Origin: a virus
Direction: 5' to 3' (one strand)
DNA: 31,840 nucleotides
Virus record (IMG/VR): IMGVR_UViG_3300031772_007818
Coordinates: 1 to 31,840 of that record
Shown here: one piece after another, positions 12,266 to 31,735 of the stretch
Numbering within the stretch: the stretch's first letter is position 1
Layout: every line of letters begins with the position of its first letter
Notes under the pieces: generated by a model
Database searches by the model: none
The model's input: the letters and a program-made list of their open reading frames with translations, nothing else
What the model was told of the DNA's origin: nothing
Translations under genes and position numbers: made by a program

Positions 12266-13585
12266 TCATGCCGTCACCTCCGCCGCCACTCGCTCGGCTT
12301 TCTTGCCAGTGAACTCTTCCCATCGCTTCACGATGACATCGCAGTAGAGCGCGTCCAGTTCCATCAGAAAAGCGCGCCGCCCGGTTCTCTCGGCCGCGAT
12401 GAGTGTTGAACCCGAACCACCGAAGAGGTCAAGGACATTCTCGCCTGGCTTGCTGCTGTATGTCATAGCCCGGACCGCCAGTTCAGCGGGCTTCTCCGTC
12501 AAATGGATCATCGACTGCGGGTTGATTTTCTTCACGCTCCAGACGTCCGTCGCATTTTTGATTTCTGGATTGAAGTAATGCGCCGCGCCTTCGCGCCAAC
12601 CGTAAAAGCACCACTCGTGGTTCCCCATGAAGTCCTTCCGCGTCAGAACCGGATGCTCCTTCACCCATATAATCATTTGCGAGAAGTAGAGTTCGCAACC
12701 CTTGAGCGCGTTGGGGTAGTTCCAGATGTTGCTGTACCCGCCCCAGATGTAGTACGCTCGGCCGGGCTCCAGCACGCGTTGGACGTTACCGAACCACGCC
12801 CTGAGCAGTCGCGCGAATTCCTCGTCGGAAACAAAGTCGTTTGCGAGGGTGCGATCCCTCGGACGCAGTTTCGTCCGCGTGGTTTCGCTGGCTTTTGCCA
12901 TGCCCTCAATGCCGACATCCATCCCTTGAGACCCCACGAACTTGCCACCCGACGCACGCGCGACCGCGATCGCCGCATTACTCCGTGGAGCAACCTGGAC
13001 ATTGTACGGTGGGTCAGTGTTCACGAGGTGGATGCGTGCGCCATCGAGGAGACGATCAACATCCTCGGTCTTGCTGGAATCGCCGCAGAGAAGTCTGTGC
13101 TCTCCGAGTATCCAGAGGTCGCCCAGCTGCGTGATCGCCTCATCCGGCGGCGCGGGTACAGCGTCCGGGTCGGTCAGACCTTCAGTGCCTGTTGCACCGA
13201 GCATCTTCTCCAATTCCTCGGTGGAGAAGCCGAGCAGTTCCAAGTCCACATCCATGCCGCGCAGTTCGGACAGTTCGATGGGCAGGAGTTCCATGTCCCA
13301 CGAGGCCAGTTCGGCGACCTTGTTGTCCGCGATGCGGTACGCCTTGATCTGTTCCGGTGTCATGTCAGTGGCAACGTGGACCGGGACTTCCATGAGACCG
13401 AGTTTCAGTGCTGCCTTCAGTCTTGTGTGACCGACAATGATGACGCCGTCCTTGTCGACCACGATAGGTTGCCGGAAGCCGTACTTGCGGATGGAGTGCG
13501 CGACCGCCTCTACGGCTGCGTCGTTGTCACGTGGGTTCTTGTCGTAAGGCTTGATGTCTGTCGTCTTGCGCATTTCAATTTGCAT
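12266..13585 (-). CDS. ParB-like nuclease domain fused to DNA methyltransferase
   Basis: A 439-aa two-domain protein. Residues 1-100 are a ParB/Srx-type domain (KPYDKNPRDND, RQPIVVDKDGVIIVGHTR, YRIADNKV). Residues about 150-439 are an amino-methyltransferase of the beta class. Catalytic motif DPPYN is at 191-195 and the S-adenosylmethionine-binding motif FGGSGST at 388-394, the reversed order that defines this class. It would methylate adenine N6 or cytosine N4 in a short site. With no restriction partner nearby, it probably protects phage DNA or affects regulation. The ATG at 13585 follows GGAGGGGAACGCC and overlaps the end of the Mom-like gene. An in-frame upstream extension (to 13801) is a shadow of that gene. 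Confidence 0.9.
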   Translation of the reverse strand: MQIEMRKTTDIKPYDKNPRDNDAAVEAVAHSIRKYGFRQPIVVDKDGVIIVGHTRLKAALKLGLMEVPVHVATDMTPEQIKAYRIADNKVAELASWDMELLPIELSELRGMDVDLELLGFSTEELEKMLGATGTEGLTDPDAVPAPPDEAITQLGDLWILGEHRLLCGDSSKTEDVDRLLDGARIHLVNTDPPYNVQVAPRSNAAIAVARASGGKFVGSQGMDVGIEGMAKASETTRTKLRPRDRTLANDFVSDEEFARLLRAWFGNVQRVLEPGRAYYIWGGYSNIWNYPNALKGCELYFSQMIIWVKEHPVLTRKDFMGNHEWCFYGWREGAAHYFNPEIKNATDVWSVKKINPQSMIHLTEKPAELAVRAMTYSSKPGENVLDLFGGSGSTLIAAERTGRRAFLMELDALYCDVIVKRWEEFTGKKAERVAAEVTA

Positions 13586-14387
13586 GGCGTTCCCCTCCAA
13601 AAAGAAATCGTTGCTGTTCAGCATCGTTTGTTTGCAATGGAGCGGGGTGACGGAACCGCCCCGTCCCCTCCAGCCGGGGTGGCTGGCAGCTCTCTCTTGA
13701 GCCTTCCCCCGCATCGACCCACCAGCGGCAGTCCGCTGTCTTGGGATATACCTGCGCCCAGCGAACCGACGACTCGCGCAGGAGTCGTTTGCGTTCAGCA
13801 TGACCGCAGAGAAACTTCACGTAACGGAACTGGTAGCCTTTCCACTTCGAGAAACCTTGCCGCATCCATTCGGCGCGACTCCGCGTGCCGAGGCGCGTGA
13901 TCATCAGGCGCGGATGCACTGGTCCGCCGTGCTCGTCAACGTACAGGTCCGTCTTGATGAATCCGCCGTAAAGCCACGACGACGCCTGGTACACGTAACC
14001 CGGCTTGCCGCGAAGGCCGTCCGCCCATGTGAAGAGCAGTTTCACGGTGGGGGCGTTCTCTCGAATCCACTCTGTGCAGAGCGAAATGAAATGCGACTCG
14101 GAGTTGCGCGGCTCATCATCGCGCAGGCACAATCGGTTGAGTTCAAGGTAGTCGCCCACTCCAAGACTTGGAAAGAGCCGCTGAATTGTATGGCGCGGGC
14201 GCACACCCCAACCCCACATGGCGACGGCAATTAGTTCTCCGGCGCCGTTTCGCAGACCGAGGTTCACGAGACAGTGGGGTGGAAAGATTTTGGAGTAGTG
14301 CCAGCGCAGGACAAAGCGTTTCGCTTCCTGAAGCGAGATGCGCTCCACGTTACCGATGCTGGAACCCTTGCGAAACTCTGCGCTCAT
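13575..14387 (-). CDS. Mom-like DNA modification protein (GNAT fold)
   Basis: A 270-aa protein with the look of the phage Mu Mom family, GNAT-related enzymes that convert adenine in DNA to a bulky modified base and block many restriction enzymes. Supporting stretches are ISLQEAKRFVLRWHYSK near the start, GELIAVAMWGWGVRP, YLELNRLCLRDDEPRN, SHFISLCTEWIRENAP and LLFTWADGLRGKPGYVYQASSWLYGG. The last ~45 residues are low-complexity and overlap the methyltransferase start by 11 nt. The two genes form one operon, which suggests a DNA-hypermodification/anti-restriction unit. The ATG at 14387 follows GAGAGGGG. The exact modification is unknown. Confidence 0.75.
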   Translation of the reverse strand: MSAEFRKGSSIGNVERISLQEAKRFVLRWHYSKIFPPHCLVNLGLRNGAGELIAVAMWGWGVRPRHTIQRLFPSLGVGDYLELNRLCLRDDEPRNSESHFISLCTEWIRENAPTVKLLFTWADGLRGKPGYVYQASSWLYGGFIKTDLYVDEHGGPVHPRLMITRLGTRSRAEWMRQGFSKWKGYQFRYVKFLCGHAERKRLLRESSVRWAQVYPKTADCRWWVDAGEGSRESCQPPRLEGTGRFRHPAPLQTNDAEQQRFLFGGERHAN

Positions 14388-20391: not shown

Positions 20392-21174
20392 TCAGTTCTC
20401 CTGGGGATTGAGGTTGATGGGGTTCACGATTGCATCCATGATTGCCTGCCACGACAGTGGCAACTCCGCAGGCATGGAGTAACGATTCTTCGCCACGCAG
20501 GCGGGCGAGCCGACGCAGCGCAGGATGCGTTCGCCGCCGTCCTTTCCGAGACCGGCAGCTATTGTGCGGTCGCGCCCGAAACCGGTGTCTTCCGTTTTGG
20601 TGATGATCTTACGCGTGGCAAAGAGCACTGCGTCGGCCCATTCTGTCACGACTGCTGTAGCGTGGCGGTTCAGGCGTGGGGAATACCGGTCGTATGCCAT
20701 TGCCTCGGGGTCTTCGTATCTCTCGACTCTCGCGTGCGCCAAAAGGATGACGCACATTCCGCGCGTGAAGCGCAGTTCATTCAGGTCGGCCAGCATATTG
20801 CGCCAGTGGTTGAGCGCGTGCGTGTAGCCCTTGGCGTAGCCGCCATCCACCTTCTCGATGCAGGAGACGCCGTACTGCTCGCACAGAGCGTCCCAGATGA
20901 GCCGCTCGAGCCAGTCGAGAGAATCAATTATCACGGTCTCGTAGTCGTGCTTCTGGTGAATCAGTTCCTGAATCGCGGCTTGCACGTCGTCGAAACGCTT
21001 GGCCAGCGGAAAACTGTTGCATGCGATCTGGTCGAGGCCGTCCTCGGTCGCGATGAAAATCGGTTTGGGGGCTTGCGCGGCGGTGGTGCTTTTGCCGATG
21101 CCCTCCGTGCCGTAAATCAAGATTCTTGGCGGTGTCTGACGCCTGCCACTGTGGACTTGTTCAAGCATTGACAT
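20392..21174 (-). CDS. RecA-like phage ATPase (Sak4-type recombinase)
   Basis: A 260-aa protein with Walker A YGTEGIGKST (21-30) and Walker B TVIIDSLDW (80-88). The later part (ADLNELRFTRGMCVILLAHARVERYEDPEA, then EWADAVLFATRK) is typical of the AAA_24/Sak4 phage nucleotide-binding family, which is related to the RecA core and promotes single-strand annealing or strand exchange. Paired with DUF669 and RusA it makes a recombination module. The ATG at 21174 follows GGAGGAACCCA and overlaps the sigma gene by 14 nt. Promoter-like repeat copy 2 lies 36 bp upstream, so it may have its own transcript. Confidence 0.88.
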   Translation of the reverse strand: MSMLEQVHSGRRQTPPRILIYGTEGIGKSTTAAQAPKPIFIATEDGLDQIACNSFPLAKRFDDVQAAIQELIHQKHDYETVIIDSLDWLERLIWDALCEQYGVSCIEKVDGGYAKGYTHALNHWRNMLADLNELRFTRGMCVILLAHARVERYEDPEAMAYDRYSPRLNRHATAVVTEWADAVLFATRKIITKTEDTGFGRDRTIAAGLGKDGGERILRCVGSPACVAKNRYSMPAELPLSWQAIMDAIVNPINLNPQEN

Positions 21175-21874
21175 TGGGTTCCTCCGTGTGATGGTTTAGT
21201 GATGTGCCCCTACCTTCTATATCTCCACGAGTGGCGAATTTGCCGCCTGGATTTTGGGGAGATTGCGTGTTTTCACCCAGAAAATGCATTCTGATGTTGG
21301 CAATGATGCGATAAATTGAATTGCGGTGAATGCCCAGCACCCGCGCGGCTTCGGGCGGAGAGAGGAACATAAGAAGTTCGCATGCCTCTCGCAGTTTGGA
21401 AGGCAGTTGCGAAAGCATCTCTTCCGTGTCGACGCGAAGAGCGACTTCGTCGAAATTCTCCGTGAAGGCAAATTCTTCGCGGTATTCGACGTGTGAATCG
21501 CCCTCGTCAGAGTCGCAGGAACACTCATCGTCCGGCAAGGGACACGGTTCATGCTTGCGCTGCAACATTTCATCGCGAATGAAATGCTTCACGTAGAGGT
21601 CCAGGACACGGCTGGCGAAGGTGTGCCACTGCGTCCTCGCGCGGTTGAACCGCGCTTTGGCCTGAAGGAGTTCAAGCCTCATGTCCTGTTCGATGTCATC
21701 GCGGCGGTCGTCATCAAGACCGAGATGCTTTGCCAGTTGATTTGCCTGGTATGTGATCCTTTTGACGATGTAGACGTCGAACAGTTCTTCAGGCAACAGG
21801 GGAGAGGGGTGCGAAGAAAGAGGAGTGGTATCGAAACATTTGGCAGTTCCACGCCGGTTTTGGGTCGTGATCAT
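21161..21874 (-). CDS. Phage sigma-70-like transcription factor
   Basis: A 237-aa protein. Residues about 50-105 resemble sigma region 2 (DDDRRDDIEQDMRLELLQAKARFNR...HTFASRVLDLYVKHFIRDE). Residues about 150-198 are a region 4 helix-turn-helix (LPSKLREACELLMFLSPPEAARVLGIHRNSIYRIIANIRMHF). An acidic, cysteine-containing linker (CPLPDDECSCDSDEGD) joins them. There is no region 1 or 3, as in ECF-type factors. It may direct host polymerase to phage promoters. I use the ATG at 21874, behind GAAAGGCGTGACA; the frame stays open upstream only to a poor TTG. The ~35 C-terminal residues overlap repeat copy 2. The terminator-like hairpin in the leader suggests control by attenuation. Confidence 0.8.
   Translation of the reverse strand: MITTQNRRGTAKCFDTTPLSSHPSPLLPEELFDVYIVKRITYQANQLAKHLGLDDDRRDDIEQDMRLELLQAKARFNRARTQWHTFASRVLDLYVKHFIRDEMLQRKHEPCPLPDDECSCDSDEGDSHVEYREEFAFTENFDEVALRVDTEEMLSQLPSKLREACELLMFLSPPEAARVLGIHRNSIYRIIANIRMHFLGENTQSPQNPGGKFATRGDIEGRGTSLNHHTEEPNVNA
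21210..21246 (-). promoter_or_regulatory. Phage-specific promoter-like repeat, copy 2
   Basis: Minus-strand reading: GCGGCAAA, seven bases, CTCGTGGAGA, TATAGAAG, GTAG. The 22-base right block is identical in all three copies. This copy lies inside the 3' end of the sigma gene, where it is read as GGKFATRGDIEGRGTS, and 36 bp before the ATPase start. It would allow the recombination/replication genes to be transcribed separately from the sigma gene. Confidence 0.6.
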
Positions 21875-21900
21875 TGTCACGCCTTTCTCGTGCTGTGCAC

Positions 21901-21948
21901 GAAAAAGGCTCGCTGAAGAACACCGGCGGGAGCGCTTCAGCGAGCCTT
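21901..21948 (-). terminator. Strong hairpin with T-run ahead of the sigma gene (terminator or attenuator)
   Basis: AAGGCTCGCTGAAG (21905-21918) is the exact reverse complement of CTTCAGCGAGCCTT (21935-21948), a 14-bp perfect stem with a 16-nt loop. On the minus strand it is followed by TTTTTC, a standard intrinsic terminator. It ends the cargo operon (stop at 22051). Only 27 bp remain to the sigma ATG, too little for a separate promoter. So the sigma gene is probably read through this hairpin, by leakage or by regulated antitermination. Confidence 0.75.
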
Positions 21949-21994: not shown

Positions 21995-22031
21995 GTCACA
22001 TCAGGCGTGATAAAATCACGTTCGGCGTGAT
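21995..22031. promoter_or_regulatory. Tandem dyad operator upstream of the sigma gene
   Basis: On the plus strand: GTCACA-TCAGG-CGTGAT, AAA, ATCACG-TTCGG-CGTGAT. CGTGAT and ATCACG alternate with 3- and 5-base gaps, giving one perfect dyad (ATCACG N5 CGTGAT) beside an imperfect one, plus a dyad across the AAA. Such arrays bind dimeric repressors cooperatively. It lies between the cargo stop and the sigma leader. Confidence 0.55.
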
Positions 22032-22050: not shown

Positions 22051-23253
22051 TCATAGCACCCAATCTCTGGGGTCTGTAGGTTTGTACCTCATAGTCGTTC
22101 CAGTGGTTATGCCATTGCGGAAGTGAGACGCCAGCGCAGAACAGTTTTTTTCACAAATTCCATAAACACGTTTTATTGAACCGTAGATTGCCCTGTAAAT
22201 GCGATCTGGGTCATTCGACATCTTTCGTTTGCGCCCACCTAGGCCGTGCGAATTCAGCAGGGTTGAAGCCAGCACATTCATGTCTTCTTGTACCTGTTCA
22301 ATTTGACCGATGTCCCCATTGCTACGGGCGTTTTCCATATCTTCCTGAAGTTCCTGCAATTTTCTGCTGTAATCCTGAAAGGCCGTATCATCCAGTACTA
22401 CGCCGGTATCGCCTGCAGCCCGCACACGATTATCGCCAGTGATGTTGGCTTCCATTTCTACGACGGGCACATCACGTCCTTCGTATAAGAGCAAGTAATG
22501 GATATAATCTAGGCCATCCAAGTTGGGTACAGAGGCAGGCTGTCCCTCAAACCGGATTGTCCATCCGCCGTTTTCTTTGCGGAACACGTTGGGTGACGGA
22601 GCGGGCACAAGCGTACCCGGCATGGCCAGCATGATGAACGACTCGCGGTATCCGGCCCACGCGTCGTTAGCATGCCAAGCTTCTGTTATGATTTTATCCA
22701 ATGGTACAAGCAGGCTGTCATGCTTTCGCATCATCTCAACGGACGGCGACCAGAAGGTCCGCGTGGGTGTTAGCGCGAGGAAAGGCCGGTTCATTTCCAG
22801 TATCACCTGTCTGAGATCGGCCTCCAGGTCATGTTCAGAAGGAGAAAGGAAAAGAACGACGGCGAACTCGCTGCCGCTCTTTGGCGAGAACCAACCAACG
22901 CGATAAATGCGGGGCGAAATCCGTTCGTACATGACCCGCACGCCCAACGCCTGTGCAACAGCGGCGGCAATCTTGTCGACGGGCAATTCATACAGAACCA
23001 CGTCTGCGGCGCTCAACTCAATGCGCGTATCTTCATCTTCACGGCTTACGGCTACAAGCGACCCATTGCGATGGCGTATCACGCTGAGAAGTAGTCCGAA
23101 CGGGTTCGGATTCGGGTACGACGTCGCGGATTTGCCTGTGGGCCTGAGCATCTGATTCACCACGTCAAACGCACCGCCTGTTCGTTGCCGCCATTCTTCG
23201 AGGACGGCAACTGCGGGATTCCGCGATTCAAGGAATTTCCAGAACTTCTGCAA
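22051..23253 (-). CDS. Cargo protein B: unknown N-terminus plus winged-helix-like signalling domain
   Basis: About 400 aa. The N-terminal half (GGAFDVVNQMLRPTG, FGLLLSVIRHRNGSLVAVSRE, ARVMYERISPR-like VRVMYERISPRIYRVGWFSPKSG) matches nothing I know. The C-terminal ~175 residues resemble a domain I recall at the end of large bacterial ATPases and transcriptional activators. It has FRKENGGWTIRFEGQ, DGLDYIHYLLLYEGRDV, then a helical DYSRKLQELQEDMENARSNGDIGQIEQVQEDM, GLGGRKRKM, DPDRIYRAIYGSIKRV and a final TTGTTMRYKP. I start it at a TTG at 23253, since AGGAGG lies 9 nt before it. An ATG at 23262 sits directly against that site and is less likely. It overlaps cargo gene A by 26 nt, so the two are co-translated. 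Confidence 0.65.
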   Translation of the reverse strand: MQKFWKFLESRNPAVAVLEEWRQRTGGAFDVVNQMLRPTGKSATSYPNPNPFGLLLSVIRHRNGSLVAVSREDEDTRIELSAADVVLYELPVDKIAAAVAQALGVRVMYERISPRIYRVGWFSPKSGSEFAVVLFLSPSEHDLEADLRQVILEMNRPFLALTPTRTFWSPSVEMMRKHDSLLVPLDKIITEAWHANDAWAGYRESFIMLAMPGTLVPAPSPNVFRKENGGWTIRFEGQPASVPNLDGLDYIHYLLLYEGRDVPVVEMEANITGDNRVRAAGDTGVVLDDTAFQDYSRKLQELQEDMENARSNGDIGQIEQVQEDMNVLASTLLNSHGLGGRKRKMSNDPDRIYRAIYGSIKRVYGICEKNCSALASHFRNGITTGTTMRYKPTDPRDWVL

Positions 23254-24424
23254 CTTGAGCATCCTCCTTTTTCGTAGCAAGGCACACAAAACCGCGCTTC
23301 TCCATCCATTGATTCAGCGTCTCGCTGTCGGATTCCCGGTCATAGACCGTTTTGGCGGGCGGACTAATGACCACGGTGCGATGCCGCACGGCGTCTGCGA
23401 ACTTGACCTTGAATCCTGCTTTCAAAAGCGTCGCCTTCGGCGGAATCGGACGGCTGATCCTTTCCAGCCTTTCAAATACGTCATCGGCCTTGTGAATCTC
23501 GACGTGATTCTGGTCGCCATCATGCCTGAAATGCAAGTCGGTGAGGCGGATTTCTTCAATGCCCGAAACATCGTTGCAGACGAGGCATGCACGCCCATCC
23601 TCAATGATTGGGCGCAGAGTAAGATTGCCGCTGCGACCCTCGGCGTCAAAGAACGTCTCGCTGCCGAAAATGTGCTTGCCGAATATTTTGCAGTATGCTT
23701 CCTTCACGCCCTTCGTTTCAGCGTGAATTGCCAGTTCGCCAGTGTCCAGATTATAGGCCAGCACATCGAACTTTTCAGGGCGATAGTAGATGCTTGAGGG
23801 CTTATCGTCCTTGATTGTGCCTTCGCGCTTGTATGGCTCGCCGTGCCGCACGAGGAACTTGGCGTTTCTGTCGCGGTGAAAGGGGAACACCTTCGTGCCG
23901 CGTCCGCGTTTCTTGGTGGAGAACCAGTCGTTCAATTCGCGTTCAAGTCTGTCCGTCAATTCTTCAGATACATCAATGGACTTGGGCAGCGATGATGCCG
24001 TGGAAGGAAAAGAGTGAAATGACTTCGGCTTGGTTAAGAATCGTTCGGCATGCATCTCTTCGAGAACGTTGGGACATTTCAACCGCATCTGCAGGGCAAG
24101 GTCAGCCGGACTTACGTCCTGCTCATCGCCGAGGTCGATGCCCGATTTTGTTGCCTTTGTGCGAAGGTCGTCGAAATACTCTGGCATCGACATCTCATCG
24201 ACGAAAAACAGCCCATCAAGCAGTGCTTCCGGCGTCTTCCCGTCTGGCGTCATGAGAATACTGGCTAGCGCGTCGTAGTCGAACGCATCGCTGTCTTGCA
24301 GTTCGAAGCCACGTTCCGTAAGGAATGCACGATGTGGCTTCAGAAAGCGCACAAGAAGTTGGCGGGAAACGGTCTTGAGCGTGGCAGGGTTGGAAAAGTG
24401 GCGTAATTTGAAAGTACTGGGCAT
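23228..24424 (-). CDS. Cargo protein A: unknown 398-aa protein
   Basis: A 398-aa soluble protein with no family I can name. It opens FKLRHFSNPATLKTVSRQLLVRFLKPHRAFL. It contains DDWF-like LNDWFSTKKRGRGTKVFPF, a beta-rich KFLVRHGEPYKREGTIKDDKPSSIYYRPEKFDVLAYNLDTGELAIHAETKGVKE (written here as separate parts), and a later HKADDVFERLERISRPIPPKATLLKAGFKVKF. I recall similar proteins of unknown function in scattered bacteria. The ATG follows GAGGGGGTTCACC. A terminator lies 47 bp upstream, so this gene begins its own unit. Its product and protein B are translated together. Position between integrase and early genes is a common place for phage-carried defence genes, but no catalytic motif is evident. 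Confidence 0.7.
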   Translation of the reverse strand: MPSTFKLRHFSNPATLKTVSRQLLVRFLKPHRAFLTERGFELQDSDAFDYDALASILMTPDGKTPEALLDGLFFVDEMSMPEYFDDLRTKATKSGIDLGDEQDVSPADLALQMRLKCPNVLEEMHAERFLTKPKSFHSFPSTASSLPKSIDVSEELTDRLERELNDWFSTKKRGRGTKVFPFHRDRNAKFLVRHGEPYKREGTIKDDKPSSIYYRPEKFDVLAYNLDTGELAIHAETKGVKEAYCKIFGKHIFGSETFFDAEGRSGNLTLRPIIEDGRACLVCNDVSGIEEIRLTDLHFRHDGDQNHVEIHKADDVFERLERISRPIPPKATLLKAGFKVKFADAVRHRTVVISPPAKTVYDRESDSETLNQWMEKRGFVCLATKKEDAQVAEVLEIP

Positions 24425-24470: not shown

Positions 24471-24504
24471 AAAAAGACCCCCAAACACACGCCTATCAGG
24501 GGTC
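24471..24504 (-). terminator. Intrinsic terminator between integration operon and cargo
   Basis: On the minus strand GACCCC (24504-24499) and GGGGTC (24481-24476) pair across a 17-nt loop and are followed by TTTTT (24475-24471). It would end the recombinase operon transcript before the cargo genes. The loop is long, so strength is uncertain. Confidence 0.5.
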
Positions 24505-24635: not shown

Positions 24636-24668
24636 AATAGTATCACAAAGCGGTTTCGTGATACTATT
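24636..24668. repeat. 33-bp inverted repeat between recombinase operon and cargo
   Basis: AATAGTATCAC (24636-24646) and GTGATACTATT (24658-24668) are perfect 11-bp arms around an 11-nt centre (AAAGCGGTTTC). It lies just past the end of the KorB/ParB-like gene. No T-run follows in either direction. It may be the site bound by the KorB/ParB-like HTH protein or by the recombinase. The rest of 24505-24701 shows no gene. Confidence 0.6.
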
Positions 24669-24701: not shown

Positions 24702-25112
24702 TTATCGAAGGCGAACCGTTATCCCCGCCCATATCGTTCTCTGCTTGCGCCAGTCGGGCTGGGCGGTGATGGGACGGAGGTGGCGTTCGCTGAGGGGGTC
24801 GTGTCCGTGCGTGGTGCGTGGAAGGTTGAGGATGGCTTCCTGGATGTCGGGGGCGAGGTGGAGGAGATTCATTATTTGCGTGACGCGGGCGCGGGTCACG
24901 TGGCCGAGTTCAGCTAGTTCCGCCTGGTCGCGCACAGCACCAGTGCGCAGAAGGTGGTCGAATTTTATCGCCAGTGCCATCAGACGGGCGACGCGTGGAA
25001 TACGGCCTTCTGTCGTGTCGCGGATCGGCTGCGGACCGGGCTTGATTTCCAGTTTGCTTCTCTTGGCTCGCACAAAGTGAAACTTCTCCGTTACGGTCAG
25101 GCCGTCTTGCAT
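24702..25112 (-). CDS. KorB/ParB-like HTH protein, last gene of the integration operon
   Basis: A 136-aa DNA-binding protein. After a basic N-terminus (KFHFVRAKRSKLEIKPGPQP) comes a helix-turn-helix of the KorB/ParB type: LMALAIKFDHLLRTGAVRDQAELAELGHVTRARVTQIMNLLHLAPDIQEAIL. Proteins like this follow large serine recombinases in several bacterial groups and may help recombination directionality or regulate the operon. The ATG at 25112 has AAGGAGGTCGC and overlaps the recombinase end by 16 nt. A perfect inverted repeat lies just downstream. Confidence 0.75.
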   Translation of the reverse strand: MQDGLTVTEKFHFVRAKRSKLEIKPGPQPIRDTTEGRIPRVARLMALAIKFDHLLRTGAVRDQAELAELGHVTRARVTQIMNLLHLAPDIQEAILNLPRTTHGHDPLSERHLRPITAQPDWRKQRTIWAGITVRLR

Positions 25113-26647
25113 GCGACCTCCTTGTGATTTCGTCCAAGTGTTTTAATACCGGTGGGATGGAACGTGATTGATATCGACTCCATCTCGCCATCGTACTCAA
25201 TGCAATCAACGAGCAGGTGGATGAGTTTTGTCTGCTGAGTCGGCGACATCGCGTTCCACATCGGGTCGAACGCCTCGACAGCGCCCGCTAGCTCGTCAGG
25301 GTCGAGCATCCGCTGACGTATCCCGGCCATGCGCTCATTGATTCCAACAATCATTTCCTGCTTTTCGCGCATTTCGTTTTGAAGTCGTCCAATCTCACGA
25401 GTTGCCCCTTCGTCGAAGCCCGCTCTTGAGGCAAGCGTTCCGATTTCGCGGCTGAGACCGCGCACTTTCTCTTCGATTTCTTCTCTCTGCCGTTTCAGTT
25501 CAGCAGTCTCATCAGTCAATCGGGCTTGCGTTGCGCGTAGTGCATCAGCCAGAATTGTATGATCTTTGCCAAGCCCTTTGATTCGCTCCACAACGAAATC
25601 TTCCAATTCTTTTGCAGGGAGGGACGGTGCCGGGCACTCCTTCCAGCCAAGTTTCTGAGCGCGGATACATACATAATAGCGGTAACGTTTGTTGCCACGC
25701 GTTGAGAAGTGGTGGCTCATTGCACATCCGCAGTGTTTGCACCGGACAAGCCCCTTGAGCATTGCGCCATGTTTGTTGCGGCATTCTTTCCCGCCAGAAA
25801 CGCGGTTTCTTCGGAGAAGTCCTTGCACGCGCCCAAAGAGATCTTCGTCAACGATTGCCGCATGTTCGCCGTCGAATACCTCGCCCTTGTAACTCATCTT
25901 GCCCAGGTAGATAACGCTGGTAAGCATCTTCTGCAATGCCGATTTCTCAAACTCCAGACCGCCTCGATTTTTGCCTTCGGTGGTTTGATACCGCTTAGTC
26001 TTCCACCCAAGTGTCCGCATCGCCTTGATCGTGGCGCTGAGCGTACCTTCTTTCAAGTACATTTCGAATATCTCCCGCACGCGTTCAGCTTCCGCCTTGT
26101 TTACGATAAGTTTGCCGCCGGTTCGCGCGCGCGCGCAGTCGTAACCTAAGACCAAAGGTCCTCCAGTCCATTTACCCTTGCGCCGCGCTGCGGCAATTTT
26201 GTCGCGGGTGCGTTCGGAAATTATCTCGCGCTCGAATTGGGCGAAGGAGAGCAGGATATTCAGCGTGAGTCGGCCCATCGAAGTTGTCGTATTGAATTGC
26301 TGCGTGACGCTTACCAGCGAAACGGAGCGACGTTCAAGAGCCTCCATTATCTTGGCGAAATCCATCAGCGAGCGAGAGAGACGGTCGATTTTATAGACCA
26401 CGATGCAGTTGACCTTGCCTTCTTCCACGGCAGCCATCAGTTGCTGGAAAGCAGGACGGTCAACGTTGCCTCCGGAGTATCCTCCGTCGTCGTAATGCTC
26501 CGGCAGGCACACCCAGCCAGCGTGCTTCTGGCTAGTGATGTAGGCTTCGCCAGCGTCGCGCTGAGCGTCGAGCGAGTTGAACTCCTGTTCGAGACCTTCT
26601 GCGGTGGATTTGCGCGTGTATATGGCGCATCGAACGTGCGTTGTCAT
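25097..26647 (-). CDS. Large serine recombinase (phage integrase)
   Basis: A 516-aa enzyme that integrates and excises the phage by cutting both strands at att sites through a covalent phosphoserine link. The resolvase domain holds catalytic Ser14 in YTRKSTAEG, DRLSRS near 108, and FAQFEREIISERTRDK. A recombinase domain follows (YLGKMSYKGEVFDGEHAAIVDEDLF). A zinc beta-ribbon with RCKHCGC and later C residues (YVCIRAQKLGWKECPAP) and a coiled coil (DETAELKRQREEIEEKVRGL) complete the usual architecture. The ATG overlaps the DUF2924 stop as ATGA. All key residues are present, so it is probably active. Confidence 0.94.
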   Translation of the reverse strand: MTTHVRCAIYTRKSTAEGLEQEFNSLDAQRDAGEAYITSQKHAGWVCLPEHYDDGGYSGGNVDRPAFQQLMAAVEEGKVNCIVVYKIDRLSRSLMDFAKIMEALERRSVSLVSVTQQFNTTTSMGRLTLNILLSFAQFEREIISERTRDKIAAARRKGKWTGGPLVLGYDCARARTGGKLIVNKAEAERVREIFEMYLKEGTLSATIKAMRTLGWKTKRYQTTEGKNRGGLEFEKSALQKMLTSVIYLGKMSYKGEVFDGEHAAIVDEDLFGRVQGLLRRNRVSGGKECRNKHGAMLKGLVRCKHCGCAMSHHFSTRGNKRYRYYVCIRAQKLGWKECPAPSLPAKELEDFVVERIKGLGKDHTILADALRATQARLTDETAELKRQREEIEEKVRGLSREIGTLASRAGFDEGATREIGRLQNEMREKQEMIVGINERMAGIRQRMLDPDELAGAVEAFDPMWNAMSPTQQTKLIHLLVDCIEYDGEMESISITFHPTGIKTLGRNHKEVACKTA

Positions 26648-27162
26648 TCAGCCTCCTTGCTTGGATCGGTCAAACCAAAGAAAAGGTAGCCATTCCATTG
26701 CGAGCCGGTTATGGCGTTCGCAACTGCGGAAAGACTGCGATAGACCTCGCCGTCATATGCAAAGCCGTTGTCGAGCACTTCAACTTCATATTCATGCCCT
26801 TTGAAAAGGCGCTTCAATATTACGCCGGGCATTGGCAATCGCGCGTCCAGATTGCACCGGATGCGCCTGTGCGTTGAAATGCTAATGCCGGACAAATCTT
26901 CGAGCGGCGGCATTTCCCATCCAGGAGGCGGCGTCATGCGAATATCCACGTCGCGTGCCAACTGCCTCGCGCGGTGCAATGCGCGGTCCGAAAGTCCGCC
27001 TTCAGCCAGTGACTGCAATCGCCACGCGCATCGGCGGAAAAGCCACAGACGATTTCCGGAGCGCGATTCCTCGCCAAAAAGTTCCAGATACTTTTCGCGG
27101 AGCGCCTTGGCCTTCATCTTCTTCAAGGCCGCAATCTCCGCCGGAATATTTTGTGCAATCAT
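26644..27162 (-). CDS. DUF2924 protein
   Basis: A 172-aa protein of the DUF2924 family, almost always encoded next to serine recombinases. Diagnostic parts are EIAALKKMKAKALREKYLELFGEESRSGNRLWLFRRCAWRLQSLAEG, the RIMPPPG-like segment IRMTPPPGW, and LPMPGVILKRLFKGHEYEVEVLDNGFAYDGEVYRSLSAVANAITGSQWNG, which is the conserved C-terminal core. Its biochemical role is not established; it may help the recombinase or act as a DNA-binding accessory. The ATG follows GGAGGACGC. Confidence 0.9.
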   Translation of the reverse strand: MIAQNIPAEIAALKKMKAKALREKYLELFGEESRSGNRLWLFRRCAWRLQSLAEGGLSDRALHRARQLARDVDIRMTPPPGWEMPPLEDLSGISISTHRRIRCNLDARLPMPGVILKRLFKGHEYEVEVLDNGFAYDGEVYRSLSAVANAITGSQWNGYLFFGLTDPSKEAE

Positions 27163-27564: not shown

Positions 27565-28116
27565 TTAGTTTTGTTTCGGACGGTCCGCTGGGATGTACGG
27601 TATCAGGCCTTTGTTGTACGCGACGACCTGCGCCTCGCGCGGGGCCATGCGGATGTCAACAATGAGGCCGTTTACCTTTAGCAACCATACCAAAGGGTTG
27701 TCCTCCATCTTGCTAGGCAGCCACCACCGGAAATCGAGGGCGCGAATGTGGAGTCCTTCGCGGATTATCTTCGCCTTTGCCTGCATCGTGCTCGCGCTGA
27801 CGCCGAACCCGGCGGCGACCTGCGTCGATTTCATGTGCGGTGTCTGGCTGGGGTCGTGGAGAAAGTTGACCATGCCTACTGTATAAACGATTCCAGCGGC
27901 CCAGCCTTCGCTTTTACCTTTCAGCACAGGCGAACCTTTTTGGCATACCGAAACAACCATCTCGCGGCAGAGTTCCTTGTACTCGGCGTTGAGATGCTTA
28001 TCGCAGAACTTATCTGTGAGCATCACCATCTCGGCGAAACGCGCGGCATATTTTCCGGGAACATTCGCCAACATTGCGACCAATACCTCGTCAGGTTCAA
28101 ATTCATTGTTATTCAT
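27565..28116 (-). CDS. DUF6398-type protein
   Basis: A 183-aa protein. Its middle, VMLTDKFCDKHLNAEYKELCREMV, then KGSPVLKGKSEGWAAGIVYTVGMVNFLHDPSQTPHMKSTQVAAGFGVSASTMQAKAKIIREGL (written as consecutive parts), carries the helix-turn-helix-like pattern I associate with DUF6398. The C-terminus is the typical DNPLVWLLKVNGLIVDIRMAP and GLIPYIPAD. These proteins sit near pRiA4b ORF-3-like and SEC-C proteins, and their role is unknown. The ATG at 28116 follows AGGGGTTGATATAGC. It lies 21 bp after the GNAT-like gene, as the last gene of a small operon. Confidence 0.8.
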   Translation of the reverse strand: MNNNEFEPDEVLVAMLANVPGKYAARFAEMVMLTDKFCDKHLNAEYKELCREMVVSVCQKGSPVLKGKSEGWAAGIVYTVGMVNFLHDPSQTPHMKSTQVAAGFGVSASTMQAKAKIIREGLHIRALDFRWWLPSKMEDNPLVWLLKVNGLIVDIRMAPREAQVVAYNKGLIPYIPADRPKQN

Positions 28117-28136
28117 GCTATATCAACCCCTATGTT

Positions 28137-28556
28137 CTACAAAAGCGCTATTTGCCGATGCCGTTTCCGCATGGTCGCCCAGAAGCCATCGCTCCAATCC
28201 ATGAGGACGTATGCCATCCACTCCTTTGGCAAGGCGTTCATCACCGCCGCGACCATCCGCGAGCCATATCCTTTGACGGCGGACGTGACCTCGTAGAACT
28301 GGATTTCCTTGCGCTCCTCTTCCAGTATCAGGGAGATTCCGACAGCAGTGGGATGTCCCGGCTTGGTAACGGGATTTCGCCGGGAACCATACGTTTCACT
28401 TGATGCCGCGAGAAAGCCCCGAGTCACCTTCACAGTTCTTATGGCATCGATTTCGGAAAGATTGCGCGCAATCCGCCTGACAACCGGGTGTGTTCGTTTG
28501 TCAACAAAACGCGCCTTTCCCTCTGAACAATCGCGGACTGTCTTTTTCAGAGTCAT
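28137..28556 (-). CDS. Hypothetical protein, weak resemblance to GNAT acetyltransferases
   Basis: A 139-aa protein. The C-terminal half reads VTSAVKGYGSRMVAAVMNALPKEWMAYVLMDWSDGFWATMRKRH. The GYGSRMV step and the DWSDGFW stretch resemble an acetyl-CoA loop and last strands of small GNAT enzymes. The N-terminal half (HPVVRRIARNLSEIDAIRTV) fits no family I know. Its ATG overlaps the stop of the pRiA4b ORF-3-like gene (ATGA), so the two proteins are made together and may work together. The assignment is tentative. Confidence 0.5.
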   Translation of the reverse strand: MTLKKTVRDCSEGKARFVDKRTHPVVRRIARNLSEIDAIRTVKVTRGFLAASSETYGSRRNPVTKPGHPTAVGISLILEEERKEIQFYEVTSAVKGYGSRMVAAVMNALPKEWMAYVLMDWSDGFWATMRKRHRQIALL

Positions 28557-29077
28557 TCTTCCTCGTCCGGGTACTGCGGCGGGCTGTCGCCGACGCGCGC
28601 CGTAATTTTCGGATATTGTCCAGAAGGAGCAGTTTCCTCAATGGATGCCACCGTTATCTTGTGCCACCAGGAGTCGCCGAAGTCGAACCAGTAGAAAAAA
28701 TACTGACGCGGCTTCAATTTCAGCGACCCGATTCTCGTATCATGCACAATGCCTTTGTGCTTTGTTTCATCGCCGAAAGGGCCTTCGAGGGCAAACTCAT
28801 GCACATAGTTGCTGGCATCGCGGTCATGGGGTTCTTTGCCACCAACTTGGAATTCGTACAGGTGTTCTTCCTCACGGTCAAAGGCTTCGAAGATGGCGTT
28901 GTGGAGATCTTCAAGAGTTTGATCGCCGCGAATCTGGATGATTCGGGAAACGATTTTGCTCTTCTTCCAAAACTTCTCGGTGATTGGCCCACCGAAGATA
29001 AAGACATCCAGCGTGAAGAGCCGTTTGTCGTTCCGCGCTGGCATCCAAGTCTTTCCTGGTTTCCTGCTCTTTGCCAT
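28553..29077 (-). CDS. Plasmid pRiA4b ORF-3-like protein
   Basis: A 174-aa protein of the pRiA4b ORF-3 (IS1096 TnpR-like passenger) family. It shows RIIQIRGDQTLEDLHNAIFEAFDREEEHLYEFQVG, then DTRIGSLKLKPRQYFFYWFDFGDSWWHKI, the conserved DFGD..WxH core, and a short acidic end. Molecular function is not known, although the family is widespread and often encoded with regulators on mobile DNA. The ATG follows GGAGGATACCTC. Confidence 0.88.
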   Translation of the reverse strand: MAKSRKPGKTWMPARNDKRLFTLDVFIFGGPITEKFWKKSKIVSRIIQIRGDQTLEDLHNAIFEAFDREEEHLYEFQVGGKEPHDRDASNYVHEFALEGPFGDETKHKGIVHDTRIGSLKLKPRQYFFYWFDFGDSWWHKITVASIEETAPSGQYPKITARVGDSPPQYPDEEE

Positions 29078-29155
29078 GAGGTATCCTCCGCTCCATTGCC
29101 GGGGTTATAGCCTTGCTTGCCTGCTCAATGAAAGACCGCGATGGCGACATAGCCG

Positions 29156-29530
29156 CTATAACTCATCGTGCTCGATAGATCCCTTGCCCAAATCCATCAC
29201 CATGCTGCTGAAATGAATTTTGAAGAATATCTTGAAATTCCTGAACGAGCGGTCGGTCGGCCATGCCGCCTCGTCCGTCCACCAGCCGTTCAGTTCGGTT
29301 TCGAATAATATAAGGAAGTTTTTTCTGAGCCACGCATCGGGCTTGTAATCAATCTCCGGAATGAGATAGACCGTTCTTTCCTCATTCTCCCAACCATCGA
29401 GAAGATTCTTGGGATCTCCGCCGGGACAACTTCGCGCCCATTGCTTGAACGCCTCAGTCGGTTCCAACGTGATGGCGGATCGGTTCACGGTGGGCAGGTC
29501 ATCTAAACTATAGTACTCGTCGTTGTCCAT
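29156..29530 (-). CDS. Hypothetical protein, conserved-looking
   Basis: A 124-aa acidic protein rich in aromatic residues: TVYLIPEIDYKPDAWLRKNFLILFETELNGWWTDEAAWPTDRSF, then FKIHFSSMVMDLGKGSIEHDEL. This looks like a conserved small-domain protein often of unknown function; I recall similar ones without a name. The ATG at 29530 lies 9-10 bases after GGAG. It precedes the pRiA4b-like gene by 78 bp and may be cotranscribed. Confidence 0.6.
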   Translation of the reverse strand: MDNDEYYSLDDLPTVNRSAITLEPTEAFKQWARSCPGGDPKNLLDGWENEERTVYLIPEIDYKPDAWLRKNFLILFETELNGWWTDEAAWPTDRSFRNFKIFFKIHFSSMVMDLGKGSIEHDEL

Positions 29531-29578
29531 GCAATCACTTCTCCTCGTTCTTGTGCCGCCTACAGGATTAGGCGCGGC

Positions 29579-29640
29579 GTTTTCTCCGACATTTTCTCCG
29601 ACACTCTTCTCTGAACTCTTCTCCGAACATCATCTCCGAA
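29579..29640 (-). repeat. Degenerate 12-13-bp tandem repeat
   Basis: Five units on the minus strand: TTCGGAGATGATG, TTCGGAGAAGAG, TTCAGAGAAGAG, TGTCGGAGAAAA, TGTCGGAGAAAA. In one frame they read as FGEEF-like repeats, the type of low-complexity linker found before the C-terminal winged helix of AlbA_2 and Fic proteins. Frame changes between units show it is no longer coding. It is most likely a decayed linker. Confidence 0.55.
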
Positions 29641-29646
29641 CTGGCT

Positions 29647-29919
29647 TCAGCGCCATCCCCTTGATTGCTTAAGGACTGCCAGTCCGGCCTGTGTTGTTCT
29701 ATATTTTTGCATTCGGCTTCTTGGTTTATCAGGAATGGTTCGCTCCAGAACGCCCATGTTCATCAAGGGCGCGAGATAGTTTGACTGGAAGGTCTTCCAA
29801 TGCTTCAGTCCCAACTCAGCCATGATGGCTTTCGCCGATTTTGGCTTCTGGCAGAACGCCGCGACTTGTGCGGTAACTTCTGCGGTCACTTGTGCGCTGA
29901 CTTGTGAGAGGCAATTTGG
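29647..29919 (-). pseudogene. Remnant C-terminus of an AlbA_2- or Fic-type regulator
   Basis: The frame starts just after a TAG at 29922-29920 and reads PNCLSQVSAQVTAEVTAQVAAFC, then KSAKAIMAELGLKHWKTFQSNYLAPLMNMGVLERTIPDKPRSRMQKYRTTQAG. The VTAQVTAEV-type linker followed by a winged helix ending TIPDKPRSRxQKY is the standard tail of AlbA_2/Schlafen-type and some Fic proteins, and it normally follows a ~350-residue N-terminal part that is absent here. A GTG at 29889 could start an 80-aa protein, but there is no ribosome site. I call it a truncated remnant; expression as an isolated HTH protein is possible. Confidence 0.65.
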
Positions 29920-29995
29920 CTATAGGCTGTTTATTATTGTTCACTTGTTGTTTACGCCTCACGACAAATGAGGAAAATGCACAAGTTGCCGTGGC

Positions 29996-31360
29996 TTATT
30001 TGATGATTTCCCAGTGACCGCCTTTGTCGGGCCCTATGCGGCGTATTAGGCCACTTTGCTGCAATCGTTTTAGTTGATACTTGACGCCGCTTACGCTGAT
30101 CCCAATTGCTTTTGCCAGTTCACGGCCGGTTATCGCTTGGTTCTGTGCAATCAATGCAATGATTTTCTGGTCAGTTTTCTGGGTAGTTTTCTGGATAGTT
30201 TTCTGGGTAGTCCCTCGGTCGGTTTCGGGAACCCCTTGTCCTTCAGGACCTCGAGGCGAACGGTGAAAGACTGCTCGGAAAAACCCGTCCGGCTTGAAGG
30301 TCGGCTCGCGGAGCCCTGCCGCAACCATGGCATCCTTCATCTTCTGGATTCCCATGCCGATGCGCTCGACCTTATGCAGGCGGAAGAAAATGTCCGCGAT
30401 GAGTTCGTTCCTACGGATTGAGACCGTGCCAAGGTCTCGTACTGACATGCCTTTAGGCAGACCGCCAGGATTCACTATTTCCACCCGGTCGTCATACACC
30501 TCGACGCTCACTTGTGTGCCGGTGATGCTATAGTCACGGTGCATGAGGGCGTTCACCATGGCCTCTCGCAAGACCTCCAGAGGAATCTCGTAGATATCGT
30601 TCCGGTTCACGCCCCGGATTTCGCTACGGATGTTCAGGTGCTTTTTGAGGAAGGCAACGGCTTCGTTAAACTGGGTGAGCAGGTCGTCCCGGATGTCACG
30701 TCGGTCGTAAATGTGAACCCTGTCGGTGCCCTTAAACGCCAGGCATGTCATCTGCGCCTGATGCAGGTATGCATACACATCCTTGGCGAAGAAGAGGATG
30801 CCAGCGTTCTTAACCCGTATCTCGTCCGCAACTCGCAAACTACGTAGAAAGTCAGGAATGGCAGTACGGCCAATGCGAATGTCAGCCTCTTTAGTGAAGG
30901 CCGTAATTTTGGCTTGGGAGATGTCGTCGAACGTGAAGCCTTTGACGGTCTTCTCTTCGAATGGAAGGGGTTCGTGCTCCGCGAACATCGCGCGCAGTTC
31001 GTCATGGCTCATTTTCTGGGTGTTGCCGTTCAAACGGCGATAATAGCCGGAGCCGCAGGAATAAGGTTTCTCGGTTCCTTCCTCAACCTCGACCGCGATA
31101 ACCTTGTCAACCTGCGAGACATTGACCGAGACACTTGGCTTGCAGTTCCGCGCCAGGCTATTGATTCTGGCTTTGAGGTCATTTATGAGACGTTCGCCGA
31201 CGATGGTTCCGTCATCCCTTACGCCAAGGAGAATCGCCCCGCCCTTGGCGTTGGCAAGGGCGACGATATCCTCATCAATACGAGAGGTATATTTCTCTTT
31301 AAATTCAACTGTCAGTCCTTCGCCCTCGCGAATGAGCAGTTTCACTTTTTCCGCATCCAT
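29996..31360 (-). CDS. AlbA_2/Schlafen-type ATP-binding transcriptional regulator
   Basis: A 454-aa protein. The AlbA_2 domain occupies about residues 5-115 (LTVEFKEKYTSRIDEDIVALANAKGGAILLGVRDDGTIVG). A HATPase-like domain follows near 270-360 (LEVLREAMVNALMHRDYSITGTQVSVEVYDDRVEIVNPGGLP, then RIGMGIQKM). A TQKTIQKTTQKTDQK repeat linker leads to a C-terminal winged helix (GRELAKAIGISVSGVKYQLKRLQQSGLI). These proteins are often labelled RecG-like helicases, but they lack helicase motifs. They are probably ATP-dependent regulators; some are linked to defence. I use the ATG at 31360, behind AAGGAGCCAAT, not the start ten codons upstream. Confidence 0.88.
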   Translation of the reverse strand: MDAEKVKLLIREGEGLTVEFKEKYTSRIDEDIVALANAKGGAILLGVRDDGTIVGERLINDLKARINSLARNCKPSVSVNVSQVDKVIAVEVEEGTEKPYSCGSGYYRRLNGNTQKMSHDELRAMFAEHEPLPFEEKTVKGFTFDDISQAKITAFTKEADIRIGRTAIPDFLRSLRVADEIRVKNAGILFFAKDVYAYLHQAQMTCLAFKGTDRVHIYDRRDIRDDLLTQFNEAVAFLKKHLNIRSEIRGVNRNDIYEIPLEVLREAMVNALMHRDYSITGTQVSVEVYDDRVEIVNPGGLPKGMSVRDLGTVSIRRNELIADIFFRLHKVERIGMGIQKMKDAMVAAGLREPTFKPDGFFRAVFHRSPRGPEGQGVPETDRGTTQKTIQKTTQKTDQKIIALIAQNQAITGRELAKAIGISVSGVKYQLKRLQQSGLIRRIGPDKGGHWEIIK

Positions 31361-31735
31361 ATTGGCTCCTTGGCGTTCTCCCGGATACACAAAGCACGAA
31401 AGGCATTATCGTAACTTGCCAGATTCCGTCAAGAGGAAAATTGGATTGTTTGGATTGTTTTGTTTCCGCAATCAGTTATAATTTTTAACCACGAGCGTCT
31501 TGATTTCGATACGGAGTCCGCTCCAATCAAGGTTATAAAATTGAGAGGTTTTTGGGTGGTGAGAGTCTGAGAGTTTTAGGATTAGGGGCAAGAGTTGAGG
31601 GAATTGCGGTTAACGGGATGGAGAAAATGTTGCGTGGATTTTGGCGCGAGAGTTTTGCGGCGTGTTGCAATATCCTTGCGCCAAATAGGATATAACGGCG
31701 TATCGCGGGAAGCCCGTTTCCTTCCTATCCTACCA
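31361..31735. other. Intergenic region, no gene seen
   Basis: About 375 bp with no convincing coding frame on either strand. It contains a short tandem GGATTGTTT GGATTGTTT (around 31443-31460) and inverted pairs TTGGCGC/GCGCCAA (near 31640 and 31675) and TAGGATA/TATCCTA (near 31687 and 31726). None matches a known element. It presumably holds the promoter of the AlbA_2 gene at its left end. Confidence 0.5.

Follow-up and report, generated by a model that had tools for sequence, protein, structure and literature searches.

An undescribed gene pair in the lysogeny region of serine-integrase phages: a predicted RdgC-fold protein and a partner with interchangeable C-termini

A and B are two neighbouring minus-strand genes of a 31,840-base IMG/VR virus record, the whole of which was analysed and is called the window below. 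They represent an undescribed and widespread pair of the lysogeny region, best regarded as a new variation on the RexA/RdgC theme that stands outside the RexAB and RdgC families. A is predicted to have an RdgC fold over most of its length, and B combines a constant N-terminal half with C-terminal modules ("heads") that are exchanged between relatives. The reading preferred here, to which we give an even chance, is that A and B form a co-translated DNA-binding complex of the lysogeny/induction switch in serine-integrase phages, in which B would pick the operators and A would act as a clamp.

Layout, distribution and linkage of the pair

Upstream of A–B lies an integrase module, made up of the genes of a DUF2924 protein, a large serine recombinase and a small ParB-HTH-like protein. 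Downstream, a sigma-like gene is followed by genes for a Sak4-like ATPase, SSB, a helicase and a primase, and then by modification, terminase, portal and head genes. The features of the region are, from upstream to downstream:

26644–27162, minus strand: DUF2924 protein of the integrase module (E 4e-40)
25097–26647, minus strand: large serine recombinase (integrase), with Resolvase, Recombinase and Zn ribbon matches
24702–25112, minus strand: small ParB-HTH-like protein of the integrase module (phrog_14161, E 3e-18)
24471–24504, minus strand: terminator-like hairpin upstream of A, with a U-tract on the coding strand (MFE -18.1, z -2.8)
23228–24424, minus strand: gene A, open reading frame of 398 aa, predicted RdgC-fold protein with 29 viral and 17 Myxococcota homologues (AF2 pLDDT 82)
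23228–23262, minus strand: overlap of A and B, 35 nt, read from the sequence; the same overlap occurs in 11 viral loci and in the Myxococcota locus L072
22051–23262, minus strand: gene B, open reading frame of 403 aa, likely DNA-binding adaptor, downstream of A in relatives (AF2 pLDDT 90, pTM 0.57)
21996–22031, no strand assigned: two TCAC-N7-GTGA repeats (starts at 21996 and 22016, 20 bp apart), candidate operators upstream of the early operon
21900–21948, minus strand: terminator-like hairpin downstream of B, with a U-tract and a perfect 14-bp stem (MFE -29.9, z -5.6)
21161–21874, minus strand: sigma-factor-like early gene downstream of B (phrog_1740, E 4e-8)

An earlier note on this DNA had described two coupled, uncharacterised genes set off by terminators, and this description is borne out. 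The ATG of B lies 35 nt within the end of A, directly at a GGAGG, and its position is the same in relatives; a hairpin with a U-tract stands on either side of the pair (24504–24471 and 21948–21900); and neither protein has a credible sequence match in Pfam, PHROG or the PDB. PADLOC returns no match for A and only a weak REase_I match for B (E 5e-4). Consensus promoters around A are no more frequent than expected by chance. The sigma-like gene starts only about 25 nt past the strong downstream hairpin (window 21874–21948), and early transcription may therefore depend on read-through, unless it begins beyond the hairpin. Flanked by the ParB-HTH-like gene on one side and the hairpin upstream of A on the other, a 33-bp near-perfect palindrome (24636–24668, 14-nt arms, 93%) could be an attP-type or a regulatory site.

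With A or B as a single query sequence, neither genome contigs nor viral contigs gave a match. The way into the Myxococcota was the C-terminal pattern of B, which is found at 45 genomic loci, all of them actinobacterial except for one in a Sandaracinaceae MAG (Myxococcota), and which has no viral matches. Homologues of A were found in 17 of 284 Myxococcota genomes. When an alignment of six Myxococcota A proteins was used as the query, 29 further contigs with A were recovered in IMG/VR, with 33–53% identity. No relatives of A were found in 50,697 cultured phage records (two A queries) or in 72,556 plasmid records, and none was matched in 246 Actinomycetota genomes, in a search that had no positive control there.

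The N-terminal half of B directly follows A in 27 of the 28 viral loci whose sequence beyond A can be read, the sole exception being L107 (the locus L116 is truncated). Together with the window, the 11 viral loci and L072 have an overlap of exactly 35 nt. In the Myxococcota, the group in which solitary B was sought, the B profile has five matches, each of them beside A, and a B lacking A was not seen in any of the 284 genomes. More distant Myxococcota loci encode A followed by a shorter protein, B', which matches the N-terminus of B at the profile level (97.6%). The question raised by the earlier note, whether A and B co-occur in other genomes, is thus answered: they are nearly always together and, as far as seen, are an obligate pair.

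The two proteins also diverge together. The pairwise distances of A and of the B N-terminus are correlated with a Mantel r of 0.91 (0 of 5000 permutations), of which a part is the shared ancestry of whole phages; the correlations with recombinase distances are lower, 0.61 for A and 0.67 for the B N-terminus. In three Myxococcota loci A and B are encoded as apparent fusions, single chains of 598–742 aa: L084:1705-3933, for which the profile support is good (94–96%), L076:730-2526, for which it is weaker, and L088:9386-11569, which was recognized by eye only. A further A match on a Myxococcota contig, L074:788-2356, has one in-frame TGA close to its end, which leaves it uncertain where A ends and whether it is fused there. 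A few kb downstream of the distant A–B' loci, two proteins that lack a Pfam match, about 250 and 965 aa long, recur as a pair (L079–L086).

Setting in the lysogeny region

The earlier note had regarded the pair as cargo; the comparison of loci indicates instead that A–B belongs to the integrase/repressor region and is conserved there. A recombinase is present in 25 of the 29 viral loci and adjoins the majority of Myxococcota loci, including those that otherwise have little in common. This constancy could mean that A–B is an aid to the serine recombinase: it might keep hold of the att sites, for instance, or be the directionality factor for excision. Such a role is improbable, given that the recombinases beside A are very diverse (24–68% identity), that the divergence of A follows that of the recombinase less closely than that of B, and that head swapping would be left unexplained.

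The genes immediately upstream of A point rather to the lysogeny switch. A LexA-like S24 repressor occupies this position in ten viral loci (two of them fragmentary) and in L078. In six viral loci and in L072 the place is taken by an XRE regulator with an ImmA/IrrE-like peptidase of the M78 family, and in L053 by the M78 gene together with the final part of an XRE gene. These LexA-like repressors and ImmR–ImmA-type switches are unrelated to A and B. Of the Myxococcota loci that lack such a repressor, three (L077, L081 and L073) have an SOS-box-like site upstream of A, which agrees with the Myxococcus SOS box, as quoted in PMC9705874, at 15–16 of 17 positions (0 of 200 shuffles each). These neighbours and sites place A–B in the lysogeny-switch region. 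About a dozen loci, including the window, have no known repressor gene directly upstream of A, and the SOS box is absent from the window, where the best site agrees at 12 of 17 positions; control of the type of a DNA-damage switch is therefore recurrent but not universal.

In the window, the TCAC-N7-GTGA repeat occurs in just two copies, between B and the early genes. The number expected by chance is 0.44 on average, and two copies are reached in 11 of 100 shuffles, so that the case for candidate operators rests on the 20-bp spacing and on the location of the repeats.

The repressor–A–B order, seen in 16 viral loci and not in the window, is that of lambda cI-rexA-rexB. In lambda and in the related systems (CarolAnn gp44/43, Sbash gp30/31, P. 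putida RexAB), as in A–B, a two-gene operon follows the repressor gene, and CarolAnn repressor–gp44–gp43 also lies beside a serine integrase. Research on lambda Rex goes back some 70 years, and only five RexAB-like systems have been described (PMC12894663).

Predicted fold of A

The part of A that is predicted to adopt the RdgC fold is the following:

23264–24034, minus strand: A residues 131–387, RdgC and CENP-N/CENP-L/Iml3-type fold (Foldseek, VIA; phage RdgC models in BFVD)

The model of A matches the centre and base domains of E. coli RdgC in Foldseek (E 7.8e-6, prob 1.00), and VIA aligns 226 residues with a Z of 10.3 and an rmsd of 5.7. Among viral models (BFVD), the top matches are mostly phage RdgC proteins. 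The next-best matches are the kinetochore proteins CENP-N, CENP-L, Iml3 and Chl4 (Z 8–9.5), which are eukaryotic, have no sequence similarity to A and are uninformative on function. The CENP-N matches start earlier than those of RdgC, at residue 66 (window 23264–24229, residues 66–387), so the helical N-terminal part of A aligns with CENP-N too. RnlA is a low-ranking neighbour (Z 4.6–4.9). Lambda RexA is absent among the fold matches listed for A, an absence that excludes nothing. RexA, RdgC, IML3 and CHL4 have been described as one fold (PMC11077077).

At the sequence level, 26 members of the A family have no Pfam match, be it to RdgC (PF04381), RexA (PF15969) or any other family. The hhalign probability is 0.2% for RdgC and 0.1% for both lambda RexA and CarolAnn gp44, and there is no match to DUF4747. 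The link to RdgC is therefore structural, and since it comes from one predicted model the fold assignment is provisional. Bacterial and phage RdgC proteins resemble A in the predicted fold of residues 131–387; A differs in having about 130 additional N-terminal residues, a fixed partner and a location in the lysogeny module.

Of the cultured phage records, 430 contain RdgC, and genes for Sak4, SSB, helicase and primase lie downstream of the pair. A could accordingly be seen as a recombination factor which acts with the products of these genes, with B as its regulator. This is very improbable: a terminator separates A–B from those genes in the window, no such genes are seen near the A–B elements of Myxococcota, and A and B are fused in some loci.

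Domains of B, head swapping and proposed function

Three parts can be distinguished in B:

22987–23145, minus strand: residues 40–92, zinc-ribbon-like segment; the cysteines are present in most other relatives and missing in the window and its near relatives
22615–22980, minus strand: residues 95–216, predicted restriction-endonuclease-like fold (Can2 Z 7.3, EcoT38I Z 6.0)
22051–22596, minus strand: residues 223–403, type I head, predicted winged helix with a coiled-coil insertion (SaeR DNA-binding domain), common to actinobacterial regulators

The matches of the middle domain, which extend over 113 residues for Can2, are weak and within the range of chance arrangements. No conserved catalytic D and (D/E)xK, or acidic-lysine, motif is found in the B alignments; B was considered as an active nuclease, and this was rejected for lack of conserved catalytic residues.

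The winged helix with which B had been said to end is recovered in the model. It is of the OmpR/PhoB type (SaeR Z 8.0 over 87 aa at 2.7 Å, GlnR 7.8, PhoB 7.5), and the distant B' proteins of group 2 have a weak Trans_reg_C match (E 0.0012). The last 181 residues resemble the C-terminus of actinobacterial AAA/STAND-TPR regulators (28–35% identity), where this domain ends large ATPases or TPR proteins; in the B family, its place can be taken by several other heads.

B proteins are a single family in their N-terminal halves, but six clusters can be told apart among their C-termini, and BLAST finds no similarity between one cluster and another. On the tree of A, the four carriers of the type I head imply four changes, each required by well-supported branches, and the nearest relatives of the window, L089 and L090 (51–53% identity in A), bear a type II head and not type I. 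Such swapping is in keeping with a DNA-binding adaptor that moves to new target sites. Head types II–V have weak HTH matches or none, and we infer that all heads bind DNA.

The earlier note had also proposed a sensor/effector pair, which is not supported since no effector or toxic domain was found. Its suggestion of a superinfection role is possible by analogy only, considering the predicted RdgC/RexA fold of A and the layout resembling that of cI-rexA-rexB. In this alternative, A–B would be a Rex-like system of superinfection exclusion (abortive infection) during lysogeny, with A sensing foreign phage DNA or intermediates and B recognizing or acting on them. The gene order and the occurrence of the RdgC fold in RexA, together with the fact that Rex-like pairs exclude phages, argue for it. 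Yet RexB is a four-TM protein, whereas B has no transmembrane segment (maximum 19-residue hydropathy 1.28, compared to 2.07 for gp43 and 2.39 for RexB); having neither a channel nor a catalytic motif, B shows no visible effector. An effector is also not expected to swap heads, and A lacks a sequence match to RexA, DUF4747 and gp44. Exclusion as the main function is thus unlikely. It is not incompatible with a switch function, as lambda RexA is reported to do both, and A–B may possibly exclude other phages in addition.

RexA dimers bind DNA non-specifically and RexA biases the lambda switch, and RdgC reduces the RecA-dependent cleavage of LexA (PMC11077077). In the preferred reading, that of a switch complex, A and B would be co-translated subunits of one DNA-binding complex. 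B would be a non-catalytic adaptor, the constant N-terminal half of which pairs with A, while the interchangeable C-terminal module would direct the complex to operators of the phage itself, for which the TCAC-N7-GTGA pair is a candidate in the window. Once delivered, A would bind DNA without sequence preference, as a clamp of the RdgC/RexA fold, and modulate early transcription and/or RecA-dependent induction. This reading draws on the observed linkage and fusions of A and B, their position, the types of repressor beside them and the swapping of heads, and on the predicted folds of both proteins. Against it count the RdgC match, which comes from one predicted model with a high rmsd (5.7) and no counterpart in sequence, the operator repeats, which are only mildly unusual, the weak HTH character of the type II–V heads, and the loci, about a dozen with the window among them, in which no known repressor gene directly precedes A. 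An extended version is more tentative and somewhat unlikely, namely that a clamp of the RdgC/RexA type and an adaptor with swappable heads constitute a new prophage switch component, which would gate RecA-dependent induction and exclude phages that use the same operators.

The A–B family, known from 29 environmental phage contigs and from Myxococcota elements, would provide a membrane-free solution for a protein of the RdgC/RexA fold in the lysogeny region. Head swapping in B opens the connection of operator choice with immunity to direct tests, and the recurrent association with LexA-like or ImmR/ImmA-like regulators or SOS boxes bears on how prophages tune RecA-dependent induction.

Two other parts of the window may be mentioned. 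At 12266–14387, a ParB-like/DNA methyltransferase fusion adjoins a Mom-like DNA modification protein, and the two are a possible anti-restriction set. Past the integrase, at 27565–31390, a DUF6398 protein, a pRiA4 ORF3-like protein and a Schlafen-AlbA_2/HATPase/winged-helix protein are encoded consecutively, as cargo or host genes.
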